Shown here in pieces: positions 4,515 to 47,609 of a stretch of DNA of 64,000 nucleotides (the first letter of the stretch is position 1; each line of letters starts with the position of its first letter). Where the stretch lies: positions 1 through 64,000 of the forward strand of contig NZ_JAJDNQ010000089.1 in NCBI RefSeq assembly GCF_022340605.1, in the 5' to 3' direction. The notes under the pieces were generated by a model. That model did not search any database and was not told where the DNA came from. It worked only from the letters and a program-made list of their open reading frames with translations. Position numbers and translations under genes: made by a program. This stretch comes from Thiohalocapsa sp. Lineage in GTDB: Bacteria > Pseudomonadota > Gammaproteobacteria > Chromatiales > Chromatiaceae.

Positions 4515-4690
4515 CGTGGCACGTCGCGGCGGGGACGCCGCTCCCACAGCCGCGCCGCGCCCACCCGTGGGAGCGCCATCCCCGGCGCGATTCAGCGCCC
4601 GACCGTGATTCATCGCGGTGGGGACGCCGCTGCCACAGCCGCGCCGCGCCCGCCCGTGGGAGCGCCGCCCCCGGCGCGATTCGACGCCAG
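4515..4690. repeat. Cluster of GC-rich REP-like repeats (family C)
   Basis: Alternating copies of GCGGGGACGCCGCTCCCACA and its near reverse complement GTGGGAGCGCCATCCCCGGCGCGA occur twice in tandem here, giving nested hairpins. Single or paired copies recur near 8.7, 16.13, 38.56 and 61.5-61.6 kb. This is the widespread 'GTGGGAGCGGCGTCCCC' REP type of high-GC gammaproteobacteria. It sits between two codirectional genes. Confidence 0.75.
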
Positions 4691-4713
4691 CCACGCACAG
4701 ACAGCAGACATCG

Positions 4714-5250
4714 ATGCCAAGCCTCCCTGCTCCGCACGACATCCCCCGCATCACCGCGCTTCGATACCCGCGGGCGAAAACCCTGAACGATCCGCTGGCG
4801 TTGGCCTTCGCCGGACTCGATGACACGGACTTCACGCACCGATCGCATTACATCGACGGCCGCTTCGAGAACCTCTATCTGGACCGCGAGCGCCTGCCCG
4901 GGCTGGACGACCTGCTGCGCTTCGCAACCGCTGCGGCCGCAGCGCGCCTGGGGCTGGAGTGCCCGCCCCTGCGCTGCGGCTTCTGGCTCAACGCCATGCC
5001 GCCCGGCAGCAGCACCAGCAGGCACAGCCACGAGGAGAACGACGAACTGCTGGCCGGTGTCTACTACGTGGCCGTGCCGGAGGCGAGCGGCGACGTCGTC
5101 TTCGCCGACGACCCCTTCGCGATCCGCGTCACGCCACGGCCGGGCCAGCTGCTGCTGTTCCCGCCGGCGCTGCCGCACTGGGTGGAGCCGCACCGCGGCG
5201 AGGGGCTCAGGCTGTCGGTGGCCCTCAACTTTGGACCGAAAAACGCCTGA
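4714..5250 (+). CDS. Putative 2OG-Fe(II) oxygenase family protein
   Basis: A 178-residue protein starting at ATG 4714. It resembles the short TIGR02466-like group of putative 2-oxoglutarate/Fe(II) dioxygenases: an N-terminal 'YPRAKTLNDPLALAF' segment, a central 'STSRHSHEENDELLAGVYYV' that supplies candidate iron ligands, a 'RPGQLLLFPPALPHWVEPHRGEG' stretch with the distal His, and a C-terminal 'LRLSVALNF' strand. The metal-binding HxD/E-H triad is plausible (HSHEEN and PHWVEPH) but not certain. Substrate unknown. It is one of three 2OG-Fe(II)-type genes in this window. It converges on the membrane protein gene that ends at 5269. Confidence 0.65.
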   Translation: MPSLPAPHDIPRITALRYPRAKTLNDPLALAFAGLDDTDFTHRSHYIDGRFENLYLDRERLPGLDDLLRFATAAAAARLGLECPPLRCGFWLNAMPPGSSTSRHSHEENDELLAGVYYVAVPEASGDVVFADDPFAIRVTPRPGQLLLFPPALPHWVEPHRGEGLRLSVALNFGPKNA

Positions 5251-5268
5251 GACCAGCGACAATCGGCG

Positions 5269-5667
5269 CTAATCCCGGACGATGATGCGCTCCACCTCCG
5301 ACACCCTGATCTGCCGGCCATCGAGGGTGCGGACGCTGTGGTCACCGACGTCGGTGCGCCGCGCCTCGAAGCGCTCGATGCTGCCGGTGATGGGATTCGC
5401 GACCTCCACGGTCACGACGTCGTGGCCACGCGTCCAGCGCTGCCAGAGCGCCAGGCCGCTGCCCGCCAGCATGACCACCACCACGAGTGCGGCGGCGATC
5501 TGGATCAGGCTGCGGCGCGAGCGCGGGCCAGCCGCGCGACCGGCCGCCTGCGCCCGCCGCCCGGCCCCGTCGGACCTGAGCCCGGACCTGATCTCGGCCG
5601 CGCGCTCGCGGATCGCATAGAAGGCCAGCACGATGATGGCCACGGTGAGGAGAAGCTTACCGAGCAT
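5269..5667 (-). CDS. Small two-helix membrane protein, hypothetical
   Basis: A 132-residue protein with an N-terminal membrane helix (LLLTVAIIVLAFYAI), an arginine/alanine-rich linker, a second helix (LIQIAAALVVVVMLAGSGLALW) and a C-terminal soluble tail of about 55 residues that looks beta-rich (VVTVEVANPITGSIERFEARR...). No family recognised. It is convergent with the oxygenase gene, with 18 bases between the stops. Confidence 0.6.
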   Translation of the reverse strand: MLGKLLLTVAIIVLAFYAIRERAAEIRSGLRSDGAGRRAQAAGRAAGPRSRRSLIQIAAALVVVVMLAGSGLALWQRWTRGHDVVTVEVANPITGSIERFEARRTDVGDHSVRTLDGRQIRVSEVERIIVRD

Positions 5668-5754
5668 GGATGTGGGTTGACCGGGGTTGTCGCCGGTCGA
5701 TGCCGCCGCTAGGGTGCGAAAGTGGCGCTGTTGCCAGAACCTGTGAGTGGGTGC

Positions 5755-5920
5755 CGCGTTGAGACTGTGAAAGTATTGCTCGCAACTCCAGAAAAGAGCG
5801 GATCGTAGGTCGGGTTAGCGATAGCGTAACCCGACTATCAACGGCGCACCGTCGCCCGTCGTCAGGTTACGCTGCGCTCTCCCCTTATCAATAGCTGACT
5901 ACACCGAATACTTTGACGGT
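5755..5920. repeat. Intergenic palindromic repeat (family B)
   Basis: Contains GGTCGGGTTAGCGATAGCGTAACC as a strong palindrome, a second partly matching copy (GTCAGGTTACGCTGCGCTC), and on both flanks the tail GAGACTGTGAAAGTATT or its complement ACACCGAATACTTTGACGGTCT. The same palindrome plus tail recurs at 13.03, 22.8, 31.1, 55.7 and 61.4-61.65 kb. The remainder of the 5668-5998 gap shows no gene. Confidence 0.75.
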
Positions 5921-5998
5921 CTCGTTGCGACGCGAGCGACCGCTCGGCACGCGGGCGATGTCGCCGCCCGCCCGCAGTCACCCTGCTTGGAGTCTCCC

Positions 5999-6664
5999 GT
6001 GCAACTGATGCGCAACATCCGATGCCTCGGCACCATACTCGGCTGCCTCCTGCTGCTGCAAGGCTGCGACGAGCCGCCGAAGCCAAGCGGCAATTTCCAT
6101 CACGCCGTGGAGACCGCGGACCTGGTGCAGATCAAGCGCCACCTGTACTGGGGGACGGACGCGAACACGCCGGGGCCGGGTGGCGAACTGCCGCTCGGCA
6201 TCACCGCGCGCCATGGCGATGTCGCCGTCGCCAAAGAGCTCATCAAGCACGGTGCGAACCCGAACCGCGCCGGCCCGGACGGCCGCACGCCGCTGACGGT
6301 GGCGCTCGAGCACGGCAAGGTGCCCATGGCGGAGCTGCTGCTGCGCAATGGCGCCGACGATGACCCGCAGGCGCTGCTGCGCGAGCTGGTGCAGGAGTCG
6401 CTGCTCGACCGCGACACGCTGGCGCTGCTGCTGAGCCAGGGCGCGACGCTCGATACCGCGGGCGCGGACGGCCGGACTCCGCTGGCGATCGCCGTCGACA
6501 CCGACAACATCAACATCGCCAAGCTGCTGCTGGAGCGGGGCGCACCGCTCGCGCCGGGCCAGCCGCCCAAGGACGCCGGCAGCGCCGCGCCCGTGCCCAC
6601 CGCGGCCGACATCGAGGACCCGCTGATGGCGCAGTTATTGCGGCGTTACGGGGTTATTGAATAA
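5999..6664 (+). CDS. Ankyrin-repeat lipoprotein
   Basis: A 221-residue protein with a lipoprotein signal peptide ending in the lipobox 'LLLLQGC', so it is probably anchored in a periplasmic-facing membrane. Behind it are about four ankyrin repeats: 'GGELPLGITARHGDVAVAKELI', 'DGRTPLTVALEHGKVPMAELLL', a degenerate third and 'DGRTPLAIAVDTDNINIAKLLL'. These are protein-interaction modules. The GTG at 5999 has a GGAG six bases upstream; the ATG at 6008 is the alternative. No operon partner; a short gap separates it from the antiporter gene. Confidence 0.8.
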   Translation: MQLMRNIRCLGTILGCLLLLQGCDEPPKPSGNFHHAVETADLVQIKRHLYWGTDANTPGPGGELPLGITARHGDVAVAKELIKHGANPNRAGPDGRTPLTVALEHGKVPMAELLLRNGADDDPQALLRELVQESLLDRDTLALLLSQGATLDTAGADGRTPLAIAVDTDNINIAKLLLERGAPLAPGQPPKDAGSAAPVPTAADIEDPLMAQLLRRYGVIE

Positions 6665-6781
6665 GGGAAGGCGCGGAGCAAGAGGTACGGAGTACTTGGT
6701 GCCTAAGCCCCGGTGCGGGCTCGTTGGCACTTGGCTTCATGGCAGTAACCTCCTGAAGACCTGAGACCCCACGGAGCGCCC

Positions 6782-8629
6782 ATGCACCACCTGACCGAGA
6801 TCCTCGCCCTACTGATGGTGCTCGGCATCGGCGCGCAGTGGCTCGCGTGGCGCTTCCAGGTGCCGGCCATCGTGCTGCTGAGTGCCTTTGGCCTGCTGAT
6901 CGGCCCGGTACTGGGCATCCTGCGGCCGAGCGAGGCCCTGGGGGATGCCTACCAGCCGATCATCAAGCTCGCCGTGGCCGCCATCCTGTTCGAGGGCGGG
7001 CTGTCGCTCAGGTTCGCTGAGCTGAAGCAGTCCGCCACGGTATTGCGCCGGCTCACCACCGTCGCCGTGGCGCTGTCGCTGACCCTGACCGCGTGGGCCG
7101 CGCATCGCATCGTCGGCATGGACTGGGCGGTAGCACTGGTGTTCGGCGCCATCACGGTGGTGACCGGGCCGACGGTGATCCTGCCGCTGCTGCGCCAGGC
7201 GCGCCTGAAGCGCCGCCCCGCGACCTTCCTGAAGTGGGAAGGCATCGTCAACGATCCCACCGGTGCGGTGCTGACGGTGGTGATGTTCGACTACTTCGTC
7301 GGCGCCGACGCGGGGCACCTGGGCGAGACCTTCGCGCACCTCGGCGCCGGCGTCGGCGTGGCGCTGCTGCTGGGCGGCGTCGGTGGCTGGGCGCTGGGAC
7401 GCGCCTTCCTCGCCGGACTGGTGCCGGAGTACCTCAAGGGCGCCGTGGCGCTGGCGGCCGCGCTCGGCGCCTATGCGCTCTCCAACCAGGTGCTGGAGGA
7501 GGCCGGCCTCATCGCCGCGACGGTGATGGGCGTGGTCCTCGGCAACATGAGCCTGCCGAGCATCGCCGAGATCCGCCGCTTCAAGGAGTACATCGCGGTA
7601 TTGCTGGTCTCCGGCATCTTTCTGCTGCTGACGGCAGACCTCGACCCGCACATCCTGGCCGCACTGGACTGGCGCAGCGCGGCGCTGATCGCCGCGGTGG
7701 TTCTCGTGGTGCGGCCGGTGGTGGTATGGACCGCCACCATCGGCGCCGGCATGAGCTGGCAGGAGCGCGCGCTGGTGGGCTGGATCGCGCCGCGCGGCGT
7801 GGTCGCCGCGGCCGTGGCCGGCGTGTTCGGCCCGCTGCTGGCCGAGCACGGCATGGACGGTGCCGAGCTGCTGCTGCCGCTGGTGTTCGTGCTGATCCTG
7901 GTGACCGTGGTGCTGCACGGCTTCAGTCTTCGCTGGCTGGCGCGCGGGCTGCACCTCAGCGCCCAGCGCCAGGGCGGTCTCATCCTCGCCGGCGCCGGCG
8001 CCTGGAGCAGCGGACTCGCGAAGAAGCTGCACGAGTTGGAGGTGCCGGTGATCGTCGCCGACAGCGCCTGGCACCGGCTGCGCGCCGCGCGCCAGGCCGG
8101 CGTGCCGGTGTACTTCGGCGAACTATTGTCCGAGCACGCCGAGCACTCGCTGGAGCTGGGCGCCTTCAGCAGCCTGCTGGCCACCACCAACAACGACGCC
8201 TACAACGCCCTGGTATGCGCCCGCTTCGCGCCGGAGCTCGGCCGGCAGAACATCTTCCAGCTCGCCACAGGCGAGGTGGCCGAGCCGCGCAAGCCCTCGC
8301 CCGAGCTGCGCGGCCGCACCGCCATGAGCGACGAGATCCTGTACGAGGACCTGCAACGGCGCTGGTACCAGGGCTGGAGCTTCCGCTGTAGCACCCTCAC
8401 CGAGACCTTCGACGTGGAGATGCTCAAGACCGCGCTGCCGGACGACGCCGTGCCGGTGCTGGTGATCGGCCCAAAGCAGGAGGTGCGCATGCTGGAGGCC
8501 GGCAAGGGGCTGCGCGCCGAGCCGGGCGAAGACGTGATCTGGTTCGGGCCCAAGGCCGCCGAGGCCGAGCCGAGGGACCCCGCCGACAATGGCACCACGG
8601 CGGCGGAGAAGCCGAGGCCGTTGGTTTAG
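6782..8629 (+). CDS. CPA1-type cation:proton antiporter with cytosolic TrkA-like tail
   Basis: A 615-residue protein with about 12-13 predicted membrane segments in the first 400 residues and the transport-site 'GIVNDPTGAVLTVVMFDYF' containing the Asn-Asp pair expected for electroneutral Na+(K+)/H+ exchangers of the NhaP group. Residues from about 395 onward form a soluble nucleotide-binding-like domain ('GGLILAGAGAWSSGLAKKLHE', 'PVIVADSAWHRLRAA') followed by a further regulatory region. It likely exchanges Na+ or K+ for H+ across the inner membrane for pH and salt homeostasis. Alone in its transcription unit as far as seen. Confidence 0.9.
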   Translation: MHHLTEILALLMVLGIGAQWLAWRFQVPAIVLLSAFGLLIGPVLGILRPSEALGDAYQPIIKLAVAAILFEGGLSLRFAELKQSATVLRRLTTVAVALSLTLTAWAAHRIVGMDWAVALVFGAITVVTGPTVILPLLRQARLKRRPATFLKWEGIVNDPTGAVLTVVMFDYFVGADAGHLGETFAHLGAGVGVALLLGGVGGWALGRAFLAGLVPEYLKGAVALAAALGAYALSNQVLEEAGLIAATVMGVVLGNMSLPSIAEIRRFKEYIAVLLVSGIFLLLTADLDPHILAALDWRSAALIAAVVLVVRPVVVWTATIGAGMSWQERALVGWIAPRGVVAAAVAGVFGPLLAEHGMDGAELLLPLVFVLILVTVVLHGFSLRWLARGLHLSAQRQGGLILAGAGAWSSGLAKKLHELEVPVIVADSAWHRLRAARQAGVPVYFGELLSEHAEHSLELGAFSSLLATTNNDAYNALVCARFAPELGRQNIFQLATGEVAEPRKPSPELRGRTAMSDEILYEDLQRRWYQGWSFRCSTLTETFDVEMLKTALPDDAVPVLVIGPKQEVRMLEAGKGLRAEPGEDVIWFGPKAAEAEPRDPADNGTTAAEKPRPLV

Positions 8630-18071: not shown

Positions 18072-18148
18072 TGGTCGGGGTGAAAGGATTCGAACCTTCG
18101 ACCCCTGCCTCCCGAAGACAGTGCTCTACCAGGCTGAGCTACACCCCG
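18072..18148 (-). tRNA. tRNA-Pro (anticodon CGG)
   Basis: The minus strand folds into a full cloverleaf: acceptor stem CGGGGTG/CACCCCG, D arm GCTC...GAGC, anticodon arm CTGTC-TTCGGGA-GGCAG with anticodon CGG, a five-base variable loop and T arm GAAGG-TTCGAAT-CCTTT. The CCA end is encoded (TGG at 18072-18074 on the plus strand). It reads CCG proline codons, which are common in this high-GC genome. Confidence 0.97.
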
Positions 18149-39635: not shown

Positions 39636-40242
39636 GGGCGGTGGCATCGGCGGGCTGCTGCTGCCGGCCCTGCTGCCGGCCCTGCTGCCGAGAGCGATCG
39701 TCGGCGCGTGTTTCGTTGCGGGCGCTTCGCGACGGAGGAACGTCCGAACATTATGCCAGCAACTCGACCCCAAGGGCGCAACCGGTCCGAACTCCCGTCG
39801 AGCACTTCGCCAATCACCAACGCGGCTCCTTTCCACCACTCGGCGCACGGCCAGCCAGGCAAGCTCCGCCGACCCCCGGCGCCGATCGCTCCGCCAAGTC
39901 GCGCCAGACGCGGTGCAACTTTCATGGACCATGGCCTAATCGATATCACGATAACAATGCGAGGCAATCCACCTACCACCACGGCGGCCTCTCCCCTTGG
40001 CCGCATCCGCCATCTTCTCAAGCAAGCATAAGACATCCTGAATTCATCGAAGCCGGCCTCCTGTATATCGCATAGGCCCATCAGGAGTATTCCCCTCACA
40101 CGCGCCGCCGCGATCGACCCAGGACCGAATCTACTGCCGTCCAAAGCGATCCTAAACCGCGTTCCATTGGCCAGACATCAGGGATTTCATAATCTAGACG
40201 CGGTAGTCACCCAAGTCCCTCGCCGCAACGGAGAGCAGGTCA
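39636..40242. other. Intergenic region before the polysaccharide genes, no gene seen
   Basis: About 600 bp between divergent queA and the glycosyltransferase gene. The first 60 bp hold short GC-rich direct repeats. From about 39925 onward the base composition becomes more AT-rich than the surrounding chromosome and stays so through the following genes, a sign of acquired DNA. Overlapping ORFs in the track show no folded-protein pattern. Confidence 0.4.
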
Positions 40243-41478
40243 TTGATCAGTCTCGGCTTGACGCATTCCCTCGCGCAACTAAGCGCCGCCAACCGCCTGC
40301 AAACGACGGCGCTACTGAGCGATGTGGAAATCGACCGCGCGCCCGGCCACCGCGGCACGCATTTGCGCGCCGGCACAACCGGCGATCGCCCACCGCGCTA
40401 TCGCTGGACCAATTGGCGCTGGTGGCTTGGACTCAACCCCAGTTTTCCAACCACGACCGCACCACGCACGGTCGCCGTGATCATTCCGGCACATAACGAA
40501 GAAGCGTGCATAGCAGAAACAATCAAGAGCGTACTCGCACAAACCGCAGCTATCGAGCAGGTCATCGTCGTCGATGATGCGTCCACCGACAGGACCGGGG
40601 AAATTGCCTCGCAATTTCCAGAGGTAGAGCTGGTTCGACCCACCGTGAACCAAGGATCGAAGCCGCGCGCCCAGAACTACGCGCTGAAGTTCGTTCGCGC
40701 CGACTTGTTCGTGACCATCGATGCAGACACCCTCCTTGCGCCCGATGCGATCGAACAGCTACTTCCCTACTTCTCCGACCCGAAGACGGGGGCGGTCTGC
40801 GGCTTCGTCATTCCCCAGCGAGTCAATACACTGTTTGAGAGGGGCCGCTTCATCGAGTATCTCTTTGGCTGCACCCTATCTAAAGGAGCGCAGAACCAGG
40901 TGGGCGCTGTCGTCGTAGCCTCTGGATGCTTCGCCGCCTACCCCACCGAACTCGTGCTCGGCCAAGGAGGGTTTCCGCCAGGAACGATGGCAGAGGATAT
41001 GGATCTGACGTGGCGCCTGGCGAAGAAAGGATACGAAGTCTACTTCCACGACACCGCGTATTGCTATCCGATCGATCCACCGAACCTGAAGATATTTGTC
41101 GCACAGGTTGACCGCTGGTACCGAGGTGTGCTGCAAAACCTGAGCACGCACAGCTTCCGCGGCCGACTGCGGCTCGGCCTATTTGTCTATTGGTACATGT
41201 TCGACGCGTTGCTGACGCCGCTGATCCTGTTCTTTGCGGTCTACGCCTACACCGGCGATGTCGCTCTGCCCTTGGCGGTCATGCTGCTTCACGACTTGGC
41301 CATCGTTGCCCCGCCGGCGTTCTTCAAGGCGGCCTCCATCGGGCGATTCTGGCAGGCAGTCGTCTCGTTTCCCGCCTTTCTTGTCCTCAGGCCCATCAAC
41401 AAGTTCATCCTATGGCGCGCAATGTGGCGCGAATGGATCAAGCGAGACAAGCTCAAGCACTGGGTCAAAGGGCATTAA
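40243..41478 (+). CDS. Family 2 glycosyltransferase, processive polysaccharide synthase type
   Basis: A 411-residue membrane glycosyltransferase. Catalytic motifs in order: 'VAVIIPAHNEEACIAETIKS', 'IVVDDASTDRT', 'LFVTIDADTL' (DAD, metal), 'GTMAEDMDLTWRL' (ED) and 'AQVDRWYRG' (QxxRW), which together mark processive synthases such as PgaC/IcaA, NodC and hyaluronan synthase. Three C-terminal helices follow ('LFVYWYMFDALLTPLILFF', 'AVMLLHDLAIVAPPAFF', 'VVSFPAFLVLRPIN'). Unlike most relatives no N-terminal helix is visible; TTG 40243 has GGAGAG upstream but a later start is possible. Thirty bases before the deacetylase gene. Sugar unknown; GlcNAc is suggested by the neighbour. Confidence 0.88.
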   Translation: MISLGLTHSLAQLSAANRLQTTALLSDVEIDRAPGHRGTHLRAGTTGDRPPRYRWTNWRWWLGLNPSFPTTTAPRTVAVIIPAHNEEACIAETIKSVLAQTAAIEQVIVVDDASTDRTGEIASQFPEVELVRPTVNQGSKPRAQNYALKFVRADLFVTIDADTLLAPDAIEQLLPYFSDPKTGAVCGFVIPQRVNTLFERGRFIEYLFGCTLSKGAQNQVGAVVVASGCFAAYPTELVLGQGGFPPGTMAEDMDLTWRLAKKGYEVYFHDTAYCYPIDPPNLKIFVAQVDRWYRGVLQNLSTHSFRGRLRLGLFVYWYMFDALLTPLILFFAVYAYTGDVALPLAVMLLHDLAIVAPPAFFKAASIGRFWQAVVSFPAFLVLRPINKFILWRAMWREWIKRDKLKHWVKGH

Positions 41479-41508
41479 CCAAATCCGCAAACCCCAACAG
41501 GTAAAAAC

Positions 41509-42288
41509 ATGAAGAAGTCACTTAAGCATGCTCTGGCGGCTCTTGCCGCTTCGGCAAGCCTTCTTGCGGCACCACTCGCCTGGAGCCAAGCGCCGACAGG
41601 GGGCAAGGCATACATAACGTTCACTTTTGACGATGCGCCGGTGAGTGTCTACACCAACGCTGGCCCCCTCTTCGCAAAGTACGGCTTTCCCGCGACTTTG
41701 TTCGTCATCACGAACGCGGTGGCTGGACCGGCGGAACAATCCTGGCACATGGACTGGAACCAGATTCACGACCTGTACCAACAGGGATGGGAGATCGGCT
41801 CCCATTCCCATACGCATCCTTATCTGACGCAAATTTCCGACGCGGACCTCTCAAAAGAGGTGGAGCAATCATTCAGTGCGTTGGCGCAGGAGCAACTGCA
41901 TCCCGAAGTGTTTGCCTCGCCTTACGGAGACTATAACGCGAAGGTCGTCAAGGCCATAGCCAAACGCTTTACCATGCACCGACGGACATTCGGCGCCGAT
42001 CCTGAACTGAATGGATTCAACGATACGAGCTCCCTCGATTGGATGGACATTTCGGCGCATGTCGTCACGGCCGGCGAATCCGCCGGCGACCTCTCCGCAC
42101 TGATCGACCAGGCCATCCAGGAAAACCAATGGCTGGTACTCTGTTTCCACGGGATCGTCAAGGGGACGCCTGCCACAGAGTATGAATATGGCTATGCCGA
42201 CCTCGACGCAATACTCCAGTACGCATACTCCGCGGGCATCTCCGTCGTCAACTTCGAACAAATGCGAGGCATTGTGGGTGACAAATAA
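41509..42288 (+). CDS. Secreted polysaccharide deacetylase (NodB domain)
   Basis: A 259-residue protein with a signal peptide (KHALAALAASASLLAAPLAWSQA). The NodB fold is complete: MT1 'ITFTFDDAPVS' (catalytic base and metal Asp), MT2 'EIGSHSHTHPYL' (metal His pair), MT3 'FASPYGDYN', MT4 near 'LDWMDISAHV' and MT5 'WLVLCFHGIV' (catalytic His). It probably removes N-acetyl groups from the polymer made by the preceding synthase, in the periplasm, as PgaB and IcaB do. Its last 11 bases overlap the start of the small protein gene, indicating coupling. Confidence 0.9.
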   Translation: MKKSLKHALAALAASASLLAAPLAWSQAPTGGKAYITFTFDDAPVSVYTNAGPLFAKYGFPATLFVITNAVAGPAEQSWHMDWNQIHDLYQQGWEIGSHSHTHPYLTQISDADLSKEVEQSFSALAQEQLHPEVFASPYGDYNAKVVKAIAKRFTMHRRTFGADPELNGFNDTSSLDWMDISAHVVTAGESAGDLSALIDQAIQENQWLVLCFHGIVKGTPATEYEYGYADLDAILQYAYSAGISVVNFEQMRGIVGDK

Positions 42289-42742
42289 GACACTGTGCCT
42301 GTGCGCATCGCTTCTCGCGCTGTCGCTGCCCTCTCTGGCGCCGAAGGCAGAGCCCGTTGGCTACCCATACTCGGGGTATGCCGCGTTGAGCAACACCTGG
42401 GGATCGGAAGATGAGGATGGCTACAAGCTCGACGGCTACGGAGAGCAAGGCATTGATTGGGTGCGTCTCGGATCGTCGCGCTGGCTGTTCAACACCTTTG
42501 TTGGCGTGGCAGGAACGGTGAGCGACCAAAAGGAGCGCTACTGGGACAACAAGGCCGGTCCCCGTGCCGGCCTGAAGCTCCGGTGGGAAGGACCTGCACC
42601 GGGTAGCGGGTGGTCCAACATGGCCATCGGCGTACGCGCTGAGAACTATCAGTATTTTGGCGATAACCAACCGTACGACAGCGACACTAGATTCGTGCTG
42701 TTTCTAGAGGCGGCGGTCGGCGGTGACTGGAAGAAACGGTAG
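42278..42742 (+). CDS. Small secreted protein of the polysaccharide module, copy 1
   Basis: A 154-residue protein starting at GTG 42278, inside the deacetylase 3' end. The start is supported by base-by-base alignment with the copy at 44741, which has a GTG at the same place. Signal peptide 'LCLCASLLALSLPSLAPKA'. The mature 128 residues have alternating hydrophobic strands ('WLFNTFVGVAGTVS', 'AGLKLRWEG', 'SNMAIGVRAENYQYF', 'TRFVLFLEAAVGGDW') and many aromatic/Gly residues, suggesting an outer-membrane or periplasmic beta-structure. I do not recognise a named family. Context suggests a role in export or anchoring of the deacetylated polymer. Confidence 0.8.
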   Translation: MTNKTLCLCASLLALSLPSLAPKAEPVGYPYSGYAALSNTWGSEDEDGYKLDGYGEQGIDWVRLGSSRWLFNTFVGVAGTVSDQKERYWDNKAGPRAGLKLRWEGPAPGSGWSNMAIGVRAENYQYFGDNQPYDSDTRFVLFLEAAVGGDWKKR

Positions 42743-42752
42743 GGGGTCAAAC

Positions 42753-43145
42753 ATGGTCATGTGTGGTGGTTACTCCAGTATCATCCATCTGTTTTTGCGC
42801 TTTCCGATACTCGCTCCGGCTCTGGCGATGACGTCGGTCGGGTATATGGTCGCGCCCATTCTGGTCAACGAAGTGCCCGATCATCCCGGGATGATAGGAC
42901 CACAGCCACGGCAAGTCCTTGTGGCAGGACGGAGAGCAACTCCGGAACAGACGCCCATGGGTTGGCCGCTGAACCGGGAGCGGGTCATTCGCCGGGGAGC
43001 GATCGAGCCGAGAACCGGGGAGTCGCTTCTCGCGGAAACGGAGGACTCGTCGAAGCGTACGCCTATGGGGTGGCCCACGGCTGACGGCACTCGGATGCCT
43101 TACAACTCGGTTCCGCTGGATAGGTCTCTGGCCCTGAATCCGTGA
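42753..43145 (+). CDS. Doubtful ORF downstream of the small secreted protein
   Basis: A possible 130-residue product beginning at ATG 42753. One hydrophobic segment ('HLFLRFPILAPALAMTSVGYMVAPILV') and a twice-repeated 'TPMGWP' motif are visible, otherwise low-complexity. No ribosome-binding site is convincing beyond GGGGGTC. It could be a membrane-anchored peptide or a chance frame. Confidence 0.25.
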   Translation: MVMCGGYSSIIHLFLRFPILAPALAMTSVGYMVAPILVNEVPDHPGMIGPQPRQVLVAGRRATPEQTPMGWPLNRERVIRRGAIEPRTGESLLAETEDSSKRTPMGWPTADGTRMPYNSVPLDRSLALNP

Positions 43146-44567
43146 CGTGATGGCGACGTCGAGCCCTCGGTGGGCGTGGATCGACCGGGCAACCGGGTGC
43201 ATCGCCGCCTGCACGCCGGCGCGCATACGCCGGCGCGCGGCCTTGCGGCCCCGCGAAATATGGGAGCCGACAAGTGCCACTTGGACGATCCGGCGCAGTT
43301 GGCTCTAGGAAGACGCCGAGGATTGGCCTTGCCGGCCAGAGTCGGCGCGGGACTCGAACACTCGGCCTCCGAACCCGGTCATGCCCTTGCCGCAGCACAC
43401 TTGAGGGTGGCGGAATGGCCTGCCCGCCCGGAGACCTTGATTTGTCGGCGCGTCCTCGGCGGTACTGGGCACAGGTGACGAGCGAGGCAAATAATGTCGG
43501 CGTATGACCGACACTCACCGAGGTGATTGCCAGTAGCGCTTCGCTCAACCGAGCAGGTCGGCGGGTTGCACGCTGACGGACTCGTCTCTTGATTCGGCAG
43601 CAACTGACCGGCCACCAGCGCACGGCGCTTAGCCCCATGCGCTGTCAGACGCAGGCGCTCCATCTCGAAACCACCCGGGCGGGCCGGTTGGCGCCCACAT
43701 CACTTGGACTCCTGCCCCGGCGCACCATGCGCCGCCACCAGCCTGCGCTACCAACTTGCACTACTGGCCGAACGGCGGGGCGCACAAGCGTACAAGCAAT
43801 TGCACCGCAGCCAAGCGCCACCCTCAGGGCACGGCACCGCCTGAGCTGCAAGCAGTTGGACGATGCTCGTCGGCTGCAGACGGCATTCGCCAGGTCCGAC
43901 GCTAGAGCGTCGGCTCGGACAGCGATGCCGTCGTCTCGCTCATCCTTGCCGTCACCCGGACGCCCAAGGGATTCGTTGTATAAGACTACGGAAAGCGACT
44001 GTCGGGCCTGAGGTTGACACGTAGGGCGTCATCAGGTACCTCTTGAGGCGGACCCTGATGAAATGAGGACCGAACAACGTGAGCGCTCCCATGCAGCCTC
44101 CGGGCGCTCCGCCAGGCATCTGTCGGGCTGCCGCAGGTCCCGTGGAGCGCGGGCGGGCAAATCCGTTTGCGTTAGATGCCACGCGATAAGCGCATGCACG
44201 GAGTTGGCATGGCGGCCGGTTGGAATAGGGGATATGGCGATCGCCGGGCGTCGCGCAGCGTTCCAGGATCTCTGCGAGGTGCTCGCCGAGCGAATGTCGA
44301 TCACGGCCGGGTCTGCGCTGAGACGCCCGTCGGGTCGCCTACGGCGTACGAGCGTGCGTCTGCGCGCTCGCTCAGGCGGACGTCGATGGCCGGCTCGCCG
44401 CAGAATCGGCGGACGTGCTGGCTGCTGATGGACCTTGTCTCAGAGGGCATACGACAGCGGAGCTTTTTCCATGAATCATCCCCGACTCAACGCCTACCCC
44501 ACCGCGCACGCGCCAGCCGAGCACTCAACTTGGCCGAGACGATGGTGCATCGCCGCCGGCTGCCAAG
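43146..44567. other. Long region without recognisable genes (decayed DNA)
   Basis: About 1.4 kb with only scattered, overlapping ORFs in several frames, none with a signal peptide, domain motif or good ribosome-binding site. GC remains high but codon periodicity is not obvious. It lies between two copies of the duplicated module and ends in a deacetylase remnant, so it is probably pseudogene or insertion debris. A short GTTCGAGTCCCGC string on the minus strand (about 43345-43357) recalls a tRNA T-arm but no cloverleaf forms. Confidence 0.45.
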
Positions 44568-44712
44568 ACAATCCATGAGCACACGTGGTTCGTCAGTTCG
44601 CACTCCGCTGGCGCGGAATCATCACGGGCACATCTGGAGGGATTACAAGCACAACGATGCCAACCTCGACGCCATCCCCCAATCTGCACACTCTGCAGGT
44701 GATCCCGCAGAC
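44568..44712 (+). pseudogene. Remnant of the 3' end of a second polysaccharide deacetylase
   Basis: Aligned to the intact deacetylase (42114-42263), this segment keeps 'TIHEHTWFVSS' against 'AIQENQWLVLC', a frame-shifted 'RGIITGTS' against 'HGIVKGTP', and 'ANLDAIPQSAHSAGD' against 'ADLDAILQYAYSAGI'. In the last block GCCAACCTCGACGCCATCCC corresponds base by base to GCCGACCTCGACGCAATACT. The reading frame is broken by indels and the catalytic His motif is lost. It directly precedes the second small-protein copy, as in the intact module, so it is the decayed partner of a segmental duplication. Confidence 0.65.
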
Positions 44713-44740
44713 ATCTATTGACAAGTGAGAGGAATTTCTG

Positions 44741-45205
44741 GTGATAAAAAAGACAATGGTCCTGTGCGCGTCGTTTCTCACGCTGTCGTTGCCCCCTCTG
44801 CTATCGCGGGCAGAGCCGATTGGATATCCATACTCGGCGTATGCCACGTTGAGCAACACTTGGGGGTCCGAGGATGAGGATGGCTACAAGTTCGATGGCT
44901 ACGGAGAGCAAGGCATAGATTGGTTGCGTCTCGGAGCGTCGCGCTGGCTGTTCAACACCTTTGTTGGCGTGGCCGGAACGGTGAGCGACCAAAAGGAACG
45001 TTACTGGGACAACAAGGCCGGCCCCCGCGCCGGCCTGAAGCTCCGGTGGGAAGGGCCGGCGCCGGGTAGCGGATGGTCCAACATGGCCGTCGGCGTACGC
45101 GCCGAGAACTATCAGTATTACGGCGACAATCAACCGTACGACAGCGACACGAGATTCGTGCTGTTTCTAGAGGCAGCCATCGGCGGTGACTGGAAGAAAA
45201 AATAG
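44741..45205 (+). CDS. Small secreted protein of the polysaccharide module, copy 2
   Basis: A 154-residue paralogue of the protein at 42278, equal in length and about 87% identical by my count (some 20 substitutions, roughly half of them in the signal peptide). The block from 'LSNTWGSEDEDGYK' to 'GGDWKK' is nearly unchanged. Start GTG 44741 follows GAGAGGAATTTCTG, a better ribosome-binding site than in copy 1. Its own deacetylase partner is a remnant, yet this copy has no stop or frameshift, which suggests it is still selected. Predicted secreted, probably beta-rich. Confidence 0.8.
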   Translation: MIKKTMVLCASFLTLSLPPLLSRAEPIGYPYSAYATLSNTWGSEDEDGYKFDGYGEQGIDWLRLGASRWLFNTFVGVAGTVSDQKERYWDNKAGPRAGLKLRWEGPAPGSGWSNMAVGVRAENYQYYGDNQPYDSDTRFVLFLEAAIGGDWKKK

Positions 45206-45383
45206 GACGTCGGGCATGGTCATCGGTATTAAAGACCATCCCCTTTGCCCATTGTTCTGGACCTGCCGCACTCGTTGCGGTGCGGCCGCCGCGGTGAGCC
45301 CCTGCTTCTTGCGAAAAGCCGCTCTCTGCCTTATTGGCTAAGAGACGGCACGATACTCGCAAACGCGGCCGCCAAGATCGCTC

Positions 45384-45412
45384 ATGTTCAGCGCCTTATC
45401 GGCGCTGAACAT
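45384..45412. repeat. Perfect 12-bp hairpin
   Basis: ATGTTCAGCGCC, loop TTATC, GGCGCTGAACAT. No T-run follows, so it is not a classical terminator. Its shape (CAT-TTC-GCGCC) resembles the two hairpins at 45.71 and 47.00 kb. Confidence 0.7.
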
Positions 45413-45706
45413 CGCGAAATCGAATGCCCGCTACCTTCGCCGTCGCGACGAGCTGGCACAGAGATGGGCAATCTGCGCCGCACTTTCTCAAGAGAGACGC
45501 CGATGGGCCTGGAGCGTAATTGGGGTCACCGCCTTTCTCCCGCGGAAGCGCCGTACTCGCCGCAACTGGACGACCGTCGCGCCGAGGGCGGCGCCGCCAC
45601 ATGGTTGGACGGGGTGATGATCGACGCCCGCCGATAATTGCCCTTCCCAGGCAAAATCGACCCGAGCTCCGAACCTTTGCAGGAATAGGGGCATTCTGGG
45701 TCCATT

Positions 45707-45736
45707 CATTCTCGGCGCTTTAGGGCGCCGAAAATG
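45707..45736. repeat. 12-bp hairpin, CATTTTCGGCGC type
   Basis: CATTCTCGGCGC, loop TTTAGG, GCGCCGAAAATG; 11 of 12 arm positions pair. It lies downstream of the secreted DPBB-like gene (minus strand), 170 bp past its stop, and has a degenerate relative at 46998. Confidence 0.65.
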
Positions 45737-45908
45737 ACGGAACACTCTGCCCGCACTCGAAGCACCGATAAACCGGCGTCTTCCAAGGCCCTCGACAGCC
45801 TGCCATTTCCGGCTGGAAAGCACCCTGATCTCGATTGAGATAAAGTGCACTGCCCACCCGTGGCGCGCCGCGGGAGATGGAGCGACCAGCGTTGAGCCTG
45901 GCCTCCAC

Positions 45909-46574
45909 CTACCAGCTAACGCCGCGTGTCGTAATCACCTTCGTCCAAGGGCCGTCTGGCACATCTTCGTCGTCGACGAACCGCCAATCCACTGTGTCGA
46001 CGTTATCAATTTTCAGGTAATCGCGAACAGCCGGGGAGACGTCGAGGCCGGCTCCGACACCGATCTTGTTCTTGGGACGGGCGCTACCGAAAACATAGTT
46101 GACGTCGTGGCTCAAGTATGGGCCTACGTCTTGCCATTGGGCGTAGGCGACCCGGCCGCCTTTCTTGATCTGTATCCAGCGGTTCTTCAACATGCTCCCG
46201 CGTTCGCTCCAATCTTCATCCTCAGCCCAGTACACCTCATCGTAAGCGGATTGTCGGGGCCGTCCGTCTTCGAGCAGGTCATCGTATGGCAGCGCGAAGT
46301 AAAACGGATTTTCCTTCGGCGTGAATTTCTTTGGACGGTAGCCGCTTCGGCTATTCGGATCATCATAGCCGCCATAGTGCATCTTCCAGTTCCGGTCCCA
46401 CGAACTTGCCGAGTTGGGAATGTGGCTGTTGTCGTTCGTAGCCTTTTCTCCCACCCAAAAGACAGTGGTTTTGATGTTGCGATGGACTGGGTAATCTGAA
46501 GCGGCCATGCATTGCGCCAGGGTGAGGAAACTGAGGAGAAAGACTACGGTTGCGAGGGCTCTGCGGCTTGTCAT
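45909..46574 (-). CDS. Secreted protein with a double-psi-beta-barrel-like C-terminal region
   Basis: A 221-residue protein with a signal peptide (ALATVVFLLSFLTLAQCMA). The N-terminal part 'KTTVFWVGEKATNDN' is followed by Trp/Tyr-rich sequence with many Asn/Asp; the C-terminal 'AYAQWQDVGPYLSHDVNYVFG', 'GVGAGLDVSPAVRDYL' and 'VDWRFVD' resemble the 'D.GPF...iDLS.aA...L' signature of RlpA/expansin double-psi barrels. Such domains bind or cleave peptidoglycan or polysaccharide. Its place beside the synthase-deacetylase module suggests a cell-surface role. Opposite orientation, flanked by hairpin repeats. Confidence 0.65.
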   Translation of the reverse strand: MTSRRALATVVFLLSFLTLAQCMAASDYPVHRNIKTTVFWVGEKATNDNSHIPNSASSWDRNWKMHYGGYDDPNSRSGYRPKKFTPKENPFYFALPYDDLLEDGRPRQSAYDEVYWAEDEDWSERGSMLKNRWIQIKKGGRVAYAQWQDVGPYLSHDVNYVFGSARPKNKIGVGAGLDVSPAVRDYLKIDNVDTVDWRFVDDEDVPDGPWTKVITTRGVSW

Positions 46575-47201
46575 TTTACGCTCGATTGAGACAGCGCGTG
46601 AGGCGACGAAACCTCATGCCATGGAAGACGCGAAAGTGTACCGTCGCCCCATCTCCTTTCGCAACGTCGGCTCGATAAATACGCGAATCCACCACCCACA
46701 ATAGGAACAGCCGACCTAAGCATATTCCCGCAGGAGGCCGGGTGATACCCGACGACGCGTCCCGGCCGTGAGGCCGCGCCCAATCGCCTTGGCCAAGCAA
46801 GCGGCTGATTTTTCGGCTGCATTGTCGGACGGACTGCGCCGCCAAGCTCGACGCCGCAAGAAAGCCGCGGCGAAAGCACTTTCGCGACATTGCGTGTCGT
46901 CGGCGCCGACAGCTGGCATGATCGCGGCGCAAGCCCGTGGCAACGCCGAAGGACTACGCGTTTCCCCCATGCGGGGCACCCGGACAGTACGTCTGGACAT
47001 TTTCGGCGCCGTTTAGGCAAAGAGAATGGCGGCATCCGAGAACCGCCTTTTCGAATACCGTCCTGATTGCCGACGAAAATGGCCAATAATGCGCATCTAC
47101 GAAGCCATTTAAGGCGAAACAGAACCGGAGCCCTGTTGTCGCCTCACTGACCGAGCCTGGCCAAGCAGAACCGATGAGCAGCGTCTCCCGCTTGCCCGCG
47201 G
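46575..47201. other. Intergenic region without recognisable genes
   Basis: About 625 bp upstream of the DPBB-like gene and downstream of msrB. It contains one degenerate hairpin repeat (46998-47028). Track ORFs on both strands show no family signature. Confidence 0.4.
46998..47028. repeat. Degenerate copy of the CATTTTCGGCGC hairpin
   Basis: CATTTTCGGCGCC-GTTTAGGC-AAAGAGAATG aligns with the reverse complement of 45707-45736 (CATTTTCGGCGCCCTAAAGCGCCGAGAATG); the right arm has decayed. Confidence 0.5.
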
Positions 47202-47609
47202 CTACTCCTCGGGCTCGAACTCGAGCGATACCGAGTTGATGCAGAACCGCTGCCCGGTCGGCTTCGGCCCGTCCAGGAACACGTGCCCCAAGTGCGAGCC
47301 ACAACGGGCGCAGTGCACCTCGGTGCGGAGCATGCCGTGGCTCATGTCCTGCTCGGTTTCGACGGCGTCTTCGGCCATTGGCTGCGAGAAGCTCGGCCAG
47401 CCGGTGCCGGAGTCGAACTTGTGCTGGGCGCCGAACAACTCCGCGCCGCAACCGGCGCATAGGTAGCGGCCGGGGTCCTTATTGGACCAATAGGCACCGG
47501 TGAATGCCGGCTCGGTGCCCTGCCGACGCAACACGCGGTATTGCTCCGGCGTCAATGCGTCCCGCCATTCGGCATCGGACTTTTCGATCTTGTCGGTCAT
47601 GTTGGTCAT
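47202..47609 (-). CDS. msrB: Peptide-methionine (R)-S-oxide reductase
   Basis: A 135-residue MsrB. Zinc-binding CxxC pairs are in '[11 protein letters not shown]' and '[14 protein letters not shown]', with '[14 protein letters not shown]' between them and the catalytic Cys in '[13 protein letters not shown]'. It reduces the R epimer of methionine sulfoxide. Start 47609 or the second Met at 47600. Divergent from the aminotransferase gene. The matching msrA is at 37.6 kb. Confidence 0.95.

Follow-up and report, generated by a model that had tools for sequence, protein, structure and literature searches.

The window analysed here is a stretch of 64,000 nucleotides from Thiohalocapsa sp. (contig NZ_JAJDNQ010000089.1, positions 1 to 64,000), and the locus of interest within it carries the genes of a putative synthase-dependent polysaccharide system together with a small secreted protein that is a candidate for its outer-membrane component.

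Genes at the synthase locus

The locus comprises the following features:

40243-41478, + strand: family-2 glycosyltransferase (GT2) of the polysaccharide synthase type (PF00535 Glycos_transf_2, 1.1e-31, Pfam)
41509-42288, + strand: secreted NodB-type polysaccharide deacetylase without a hydrolase domain (PF01522 Polysacc_deac_1, 1.4e-25, Pfam)
42278-42742, + strand: small secreted protein, copy 1, 154 amino acids (aa), with a predicted six-strand outer-membrane-type domain (open reading frame (ORF) from GTG; AlphaFold2 (AF2) model; homologues beside synthase genes)
44602-44740, + strand: remnant of the 3' end of nodB, decayed, upstream of copy 2 (64% identical in DNA to 42138-42277; nodB frame not open)
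44741-45205, + strand: small protein, copy 2, 154 aa, 87% identical to copy 1 (ORF and sequence comparison)

The gene layout given in the original prediction was reproduced, with all three of its ORFs in place, a gap of 30 bases between GT2 and NodB and an overlap of 11 bases between NodB and the small gene. Its description of a three-gene module had overlooked the second small-gene copy; beyond copies 1 and 2, no further copy was found in the same genome. The catalytic part of the GT2 spans approximately 40459-41475, and its D112, D160/D162, E251-D252 and Q288-R291-W292 residues (D, DxD, ED and QxxRW) are invariant in comparison with four related synthases. A hydropathy scan located three hydrophobic segments at the C-terminus and none at the N-terminus, and a start scan showed neither a convincing start codon nor a convincing ribosome-binding site. 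The true start and 5' end of the gene are therefore uncertain, and the claim of a complete processive synthase, although its catalytic motifs are there, is doubtful as to completeness. In the deacetylase, the metal-ligand motifs TFDD and HSHTHP (H99, H103) are retained as predicted, and motif 3 is corrected to ASPYG, not RxPY.

The small proteins matched no family above noise or cut-off in Pfam, NCBIfam or PHROGs and no PDB entry by sequence, in line with the earlier statement that the protein fits no known family. A signal peptide is apparent from the sequence in the single-domain forms, copy 1 among them. The DNA similarity of the two copies begins 5' of the small gene, within the last 150 bases of nodB, which indicates that copy 2 was derived from the operon and carried the nodB tail along; the 64% identity of this tail compares with an average of 50% and a maximum of 60% for unrelated 140-base pairs. 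Between the two mature parts, a dN/dS (ratio of non-synonymous to synonymous substitution rates) of 0.09 was computed, indicating purifying selection, and the signal peptide is diverging faster. Because the nodB tail has decayed but the mature parts are constrained to this degree, both mature proteins appear, as judged from their sequences, to be kept by selection. With the exception of this gene duplication, scattered short repeats near the locus occur at chance level.

Relatives of the small protein and their neighbourhoods

By iterated profile searches, homologous domains were found in ten other genomes, giving 11 loci together with the window: L007 (a Geobacter metagenome-assembled genome (MAG)), L008 (an Ectothiorhodospiraceae MAG), L010, L022-L024, L033-L035 and L043. 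As a plain count, polysaccharide synthase or bcs genes lie nearby in 11 of 11 domain-carrying loci. In L007 and L022, the small gene directly adjoins a GH18-NodB-GT2 fusion, and in L008 the strand opposite the small gene encodes a GT2 as well as a GHL10-NodB protein. In L010, a GT2 is followed by NodB motifs and a GHL10 domain, which lie in adjoining frames, and then by a protein with two copies of the small-protein domain, the NodB motifs having been identified by eye in the neighbouring frame. Linkage to GT2 and NodB genes elsewhere, which the original prediction proposed to survey, is thus observed in L007, L008, L010 and L022. Furthermore, cellulose-synthase-like GT2s are present in L034 and L035, accompanied by either GH26 or PilZ plus a PMT-type transferase.

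The remaining loci belong to cellulose-type systems and carry two-domain proteins. L023 has the order BcsB, GH8, a SPOR-TPR (tetratricopeptide repeat) protein with two domains at its C-terminus, and BcsG; the gene order of L024 is the same, as judged by sequence similarity, and L033, at a contig end, retains the two-domain protein and a BcsG-like gene. In all three, the two domains stand at the C-terminus of a TPR-type repeat protein, which is the position of the BcsC barrel. L043 contains a complete operon of BcsA (with PilZ), BcsB, GH8 and BcsG, followed by a free two-domain protein; BcsC is absent from this operon, and no other outer-membrane gene is present in it. Across the 11 genomes, the computed search for BCSC_C (PF05420) gave no match, with a positive E. 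coli control and with other porin families not searched genome-wide, and the two-domain proteins themselves were not matched by this model either.

In a tree of the domains, the two halves of the L010 protein pair with each other (96/95), as do those of L043, less firmly (90/94); in L023, L024 and L033, by contrast, the first halves group apart from the second halves. The starred branches require the tandem (paired) state to have arisen no fewer than two times. Counting also the window's own, separate duplication, the unit has repeatedly come to occur in twos, as half-barrels would need.

Three observations concern individual loci. At L022, the locus with a GH18-NodB-GT2 fusion, a beta-lactamase-family (PF13354) protein encoded at 5076-6083 immediately precedes the small gene. 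At L010, the deacetylase/GHL10 region (4566-7189) occupies two adjoining frames, which may reflect a real split or an assembly frameshift. One further candidate relative, L036 (E 0.006), was rejected as a chance match within a flippase-like protein.

Predicted fold and candidate export function

The single domain of the window was predicted by AF2 to form six antiparallel strands at a predicted local distance difference test (pLDDT) score of 80, with five models similar in confidence, and the L023 tandem to form twelve strands, its best model reaching a pLDDT of 81. These models have long strands, most of them running to 12-16 residues, joined by short turns, as in outer-membrane proteins. The 8-stranded barrel suggested earlier was consequently set aside as first choice, given the six strands predicted. 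By Foldseek, the tandem matched 55 PDB chains at E<=0.001, and all 50 matches listed are outer-membrane barrels (probability 0.99-1.00), including the 12-stranded Hbp, EspP, VhGalP and PcoB (TM-scores of about 0.5-0.6) and the PgaA barrel 4y25.

The neighbourhoods, the absence of BCSC_C, the six and twelve predicted strands and the tandem fold matches are best read as supporting the earlier guess that the small protein is an outer-membrane component. It is somewhat more probable than not that, in a synthase-dependent polysaccharide system, it serves as the exporter of the outer membrane or as a subunit of that exporter. In this reading, the GT2 would polymerise a polymer and extrude it through the inner membrane, the periplasmic NodB enzyme would partly de-N-acetylate it, and the small protein would give it passage over the outer membrane. 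More specifically, each domain copy may contribute six beta-strands, equivalent to half of a 12-stranded barrel. As a single domain would then supply only half a channel, single-domain forms would have to oligomerise. In some relatives, two copies are fused in one chain, which either is free or follows TPR repeats. The window instead encodes the proposed halves as separate chains, from the paralogous genes at 42278 and 44741, and these would homo- or hetero-oligomerise. This more detailed proposal, in which two separately encoded six-strand proteins close a 12-stranded pore and the unit was tandem-fused more than once, replacing BcsC and PgaA in cellulose and deacetylated-polymer systems, is put forward tentatively, as a possibility somewhat short of probable. 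The homology, the neighbourhoods, the predicted strand counts, the lack of BCSC_C and the selection on both copies are results of computation; outer-membrane insertion, pore function, oligomeric state and the nature of the polymer are what we infer.

Several results weigh against the exporter reading. The AF2 prediction of the tandem, made from an input of four sequences, was confident in only one of five models (81 versus 50, 39, 38 and 26), and its fold matches are modest, with TM-scores near 0.5 and a root-mean-square deviation of 6-8 A. The single domain had no PDB match at E<=0.001 by Foldseek, and alternating hydrophobicity was significant in only three of its six strands. Moreover, a pore of 12 strands falls short in size of the 16-stranded barrels of BcsC and PgaA, and in L008 and L034 the gene lies outside the transcription unit of the synthase.

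Some of the evidence could also be accommodated by an outer-membrane protein that does not conduct the polymer. As a small monomer, barrel or sheet, it would anchor the polymer at the cell surface or keep the exporter in place, with an unrelated porin performing export. The best Foldseek match of the single domain is the 8-stranded OmpA transmembrane domain (probability 0.91, E 0.19), copy 1 has a weak OMP_b-brl match in Pfam (0.029, below cut-off), and single-domain forms predominate in GT2-NodB loci. This explanation is nevertheless unlikely, as six strands rather than eight are predicted, the complete bcs operon of L043 offers no other outer-membrane gene in a genome lacking BCSC_C, and the domain occupies the place of the BcsC barrel behind the TPRs of L023, L024 and L033.

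The window locus might also be a decaying transferred remnant, in which case the domain would be a true exporter in the relatives and the window module, its GT2 having lost the N-terminus, would no longer work. The missing N-terminal segment and poor start of the GT2, the lack of a hydrolase domain, the little recognisable coding sequence between the small-gene copies and the island-like GC content are compatible with such decay, but both small-gene copies are intact, with their mature parts under strong purifying selection, and the GT2 and NodB frames are open with their catalytic residues retained, which makes it improbable. Least probable is a protein of the periplasm, made of a beta-sheet or binding polysaccharides, which would guide or protect the growing polymer and would not reside in the outer membrane: no sequence family links the domain to known barrels, its membrane insertion is a matter of interpretation and three of its strands show weak amphipathic alternation, but the tandem retrieves outer-membrane barrels at near-certain probability and the long strands and short turns resemble those of outer-membrane proteins.

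Genomic setting and comparison with known systems

The AT-richer DNA noted in the original prediction was recovered, the GC content falling from about 0.68 to 0.57-0.59 at 40.5-42.5 kb and remaining low to about 47 kb. The stretch 40000-47500 has a GC content of about 0.57-0.66, versus about 0.68-0.72 around it, is flanked by queA and a class-V aminotransferase gene, and is possibly an acquired island. The small gene is rare, being present in two other genomes among 274 of the class and in no additional one among 399 of the phylum, and it was found in none of 55 other relatives searched, 9 congeners included. Neither the GT2 nor the small gene occurs in the 9 congeners or in about 25 members of the family, which fits acquisition and renders the earlier hint of it plausible. 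Neither the single nor the two-domain form had a match on plasmids, and viral contigs gave no match. An ORF at 42723-43145 (+ strand), following copy 1, contains a repeated TPMGWP motif and may be non-coding. Directly downstream of copy 2, on the opposite strand and in the same lower-GC stretch, 45909-46574 (- strand) encodes an apparently secreted 221-aa protein with no family in Pfam, NCBIfam or PHROGs. Elsewhere in the window, a tRNA gene at 18075-18148 (- strand) is the only Rfam match.

With regard to known systems, the locus resembles PgaABCD/IcaADBC, which make poly-N-acetylglucosamine (PNAG), in its GT2 and NodB deacetylase, and PgaA is among the tandem fold matches. It differs in lacking the TPR-barrel PgaA, PgaD and the hydrolase domain, as had been predicted; for PgaA, no such ORF was found at 36-47 kb, the rest of the genome not having been searched. 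A Pga/Ica (PNAG) product is not supported: the GT2 scored 115.4 bits against the PgaC_IcaA model TIGR03937 (cut-off 422.3), and the NodB protein scored 42 bits against the IcaB model (cut-off 248) and 29 bits against the PgaB model (cut-off 322), none reaching its cut-off. Pga-like operons with GT-deacetylase fusions, in which pgaA and pgaD are undetectable, are described in the relevant parts of PMC7112194, and no alternative exporter is proposed there for the pgaA-less operons. The GH18-NodB-GT2 fusions of L007 and L022, which have no adjoining PgaA gene, resemble the operons described in those parts.

The likeness to the C-terminal barrel of BcsC lies in the position behind TPRs and in L043, where the domain is the only outer-membrane candidate of the bcsA-B-Z-G operon and, as a barrel candidate in a bcs operon without BcsC, holds the place of a BcsC-like role. 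In contrast to BcsC, the domain is not recognised by PF05420, is often encoded as separate single units, and is predicted to have 2 x 6 strands versus the 16-stranded barrel of the known structure. In predicted strand number and fold, it is closer to 12-stranded outer-membrane barrels such as autotransporter beta-domains, the KdgM-type porin VhGalP and PcoB; in these, the whole barrel is formed from one chain, and no sequence relationship to the small-protein domain was detected. In a literature search, with most subscription journals and bioRxiv outside its reach, neither a polysaccharide exporter built from half-barrels nor a replacement for BcsC in Geobacter was found to have been reported.

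Altogether, the domain family provides a testable candidate exporter for bcs operons without BcsC and for some of the pgaA-less Pga-like loci of the kind described in those parts of PMC7112194, and its profile can be used to annotate the missing export component. If the half-barrel proposal is true, the family would represent an unusual outer-membrane barrel in which two chains together close the wall, and its fused forms could be compared with its split ones.
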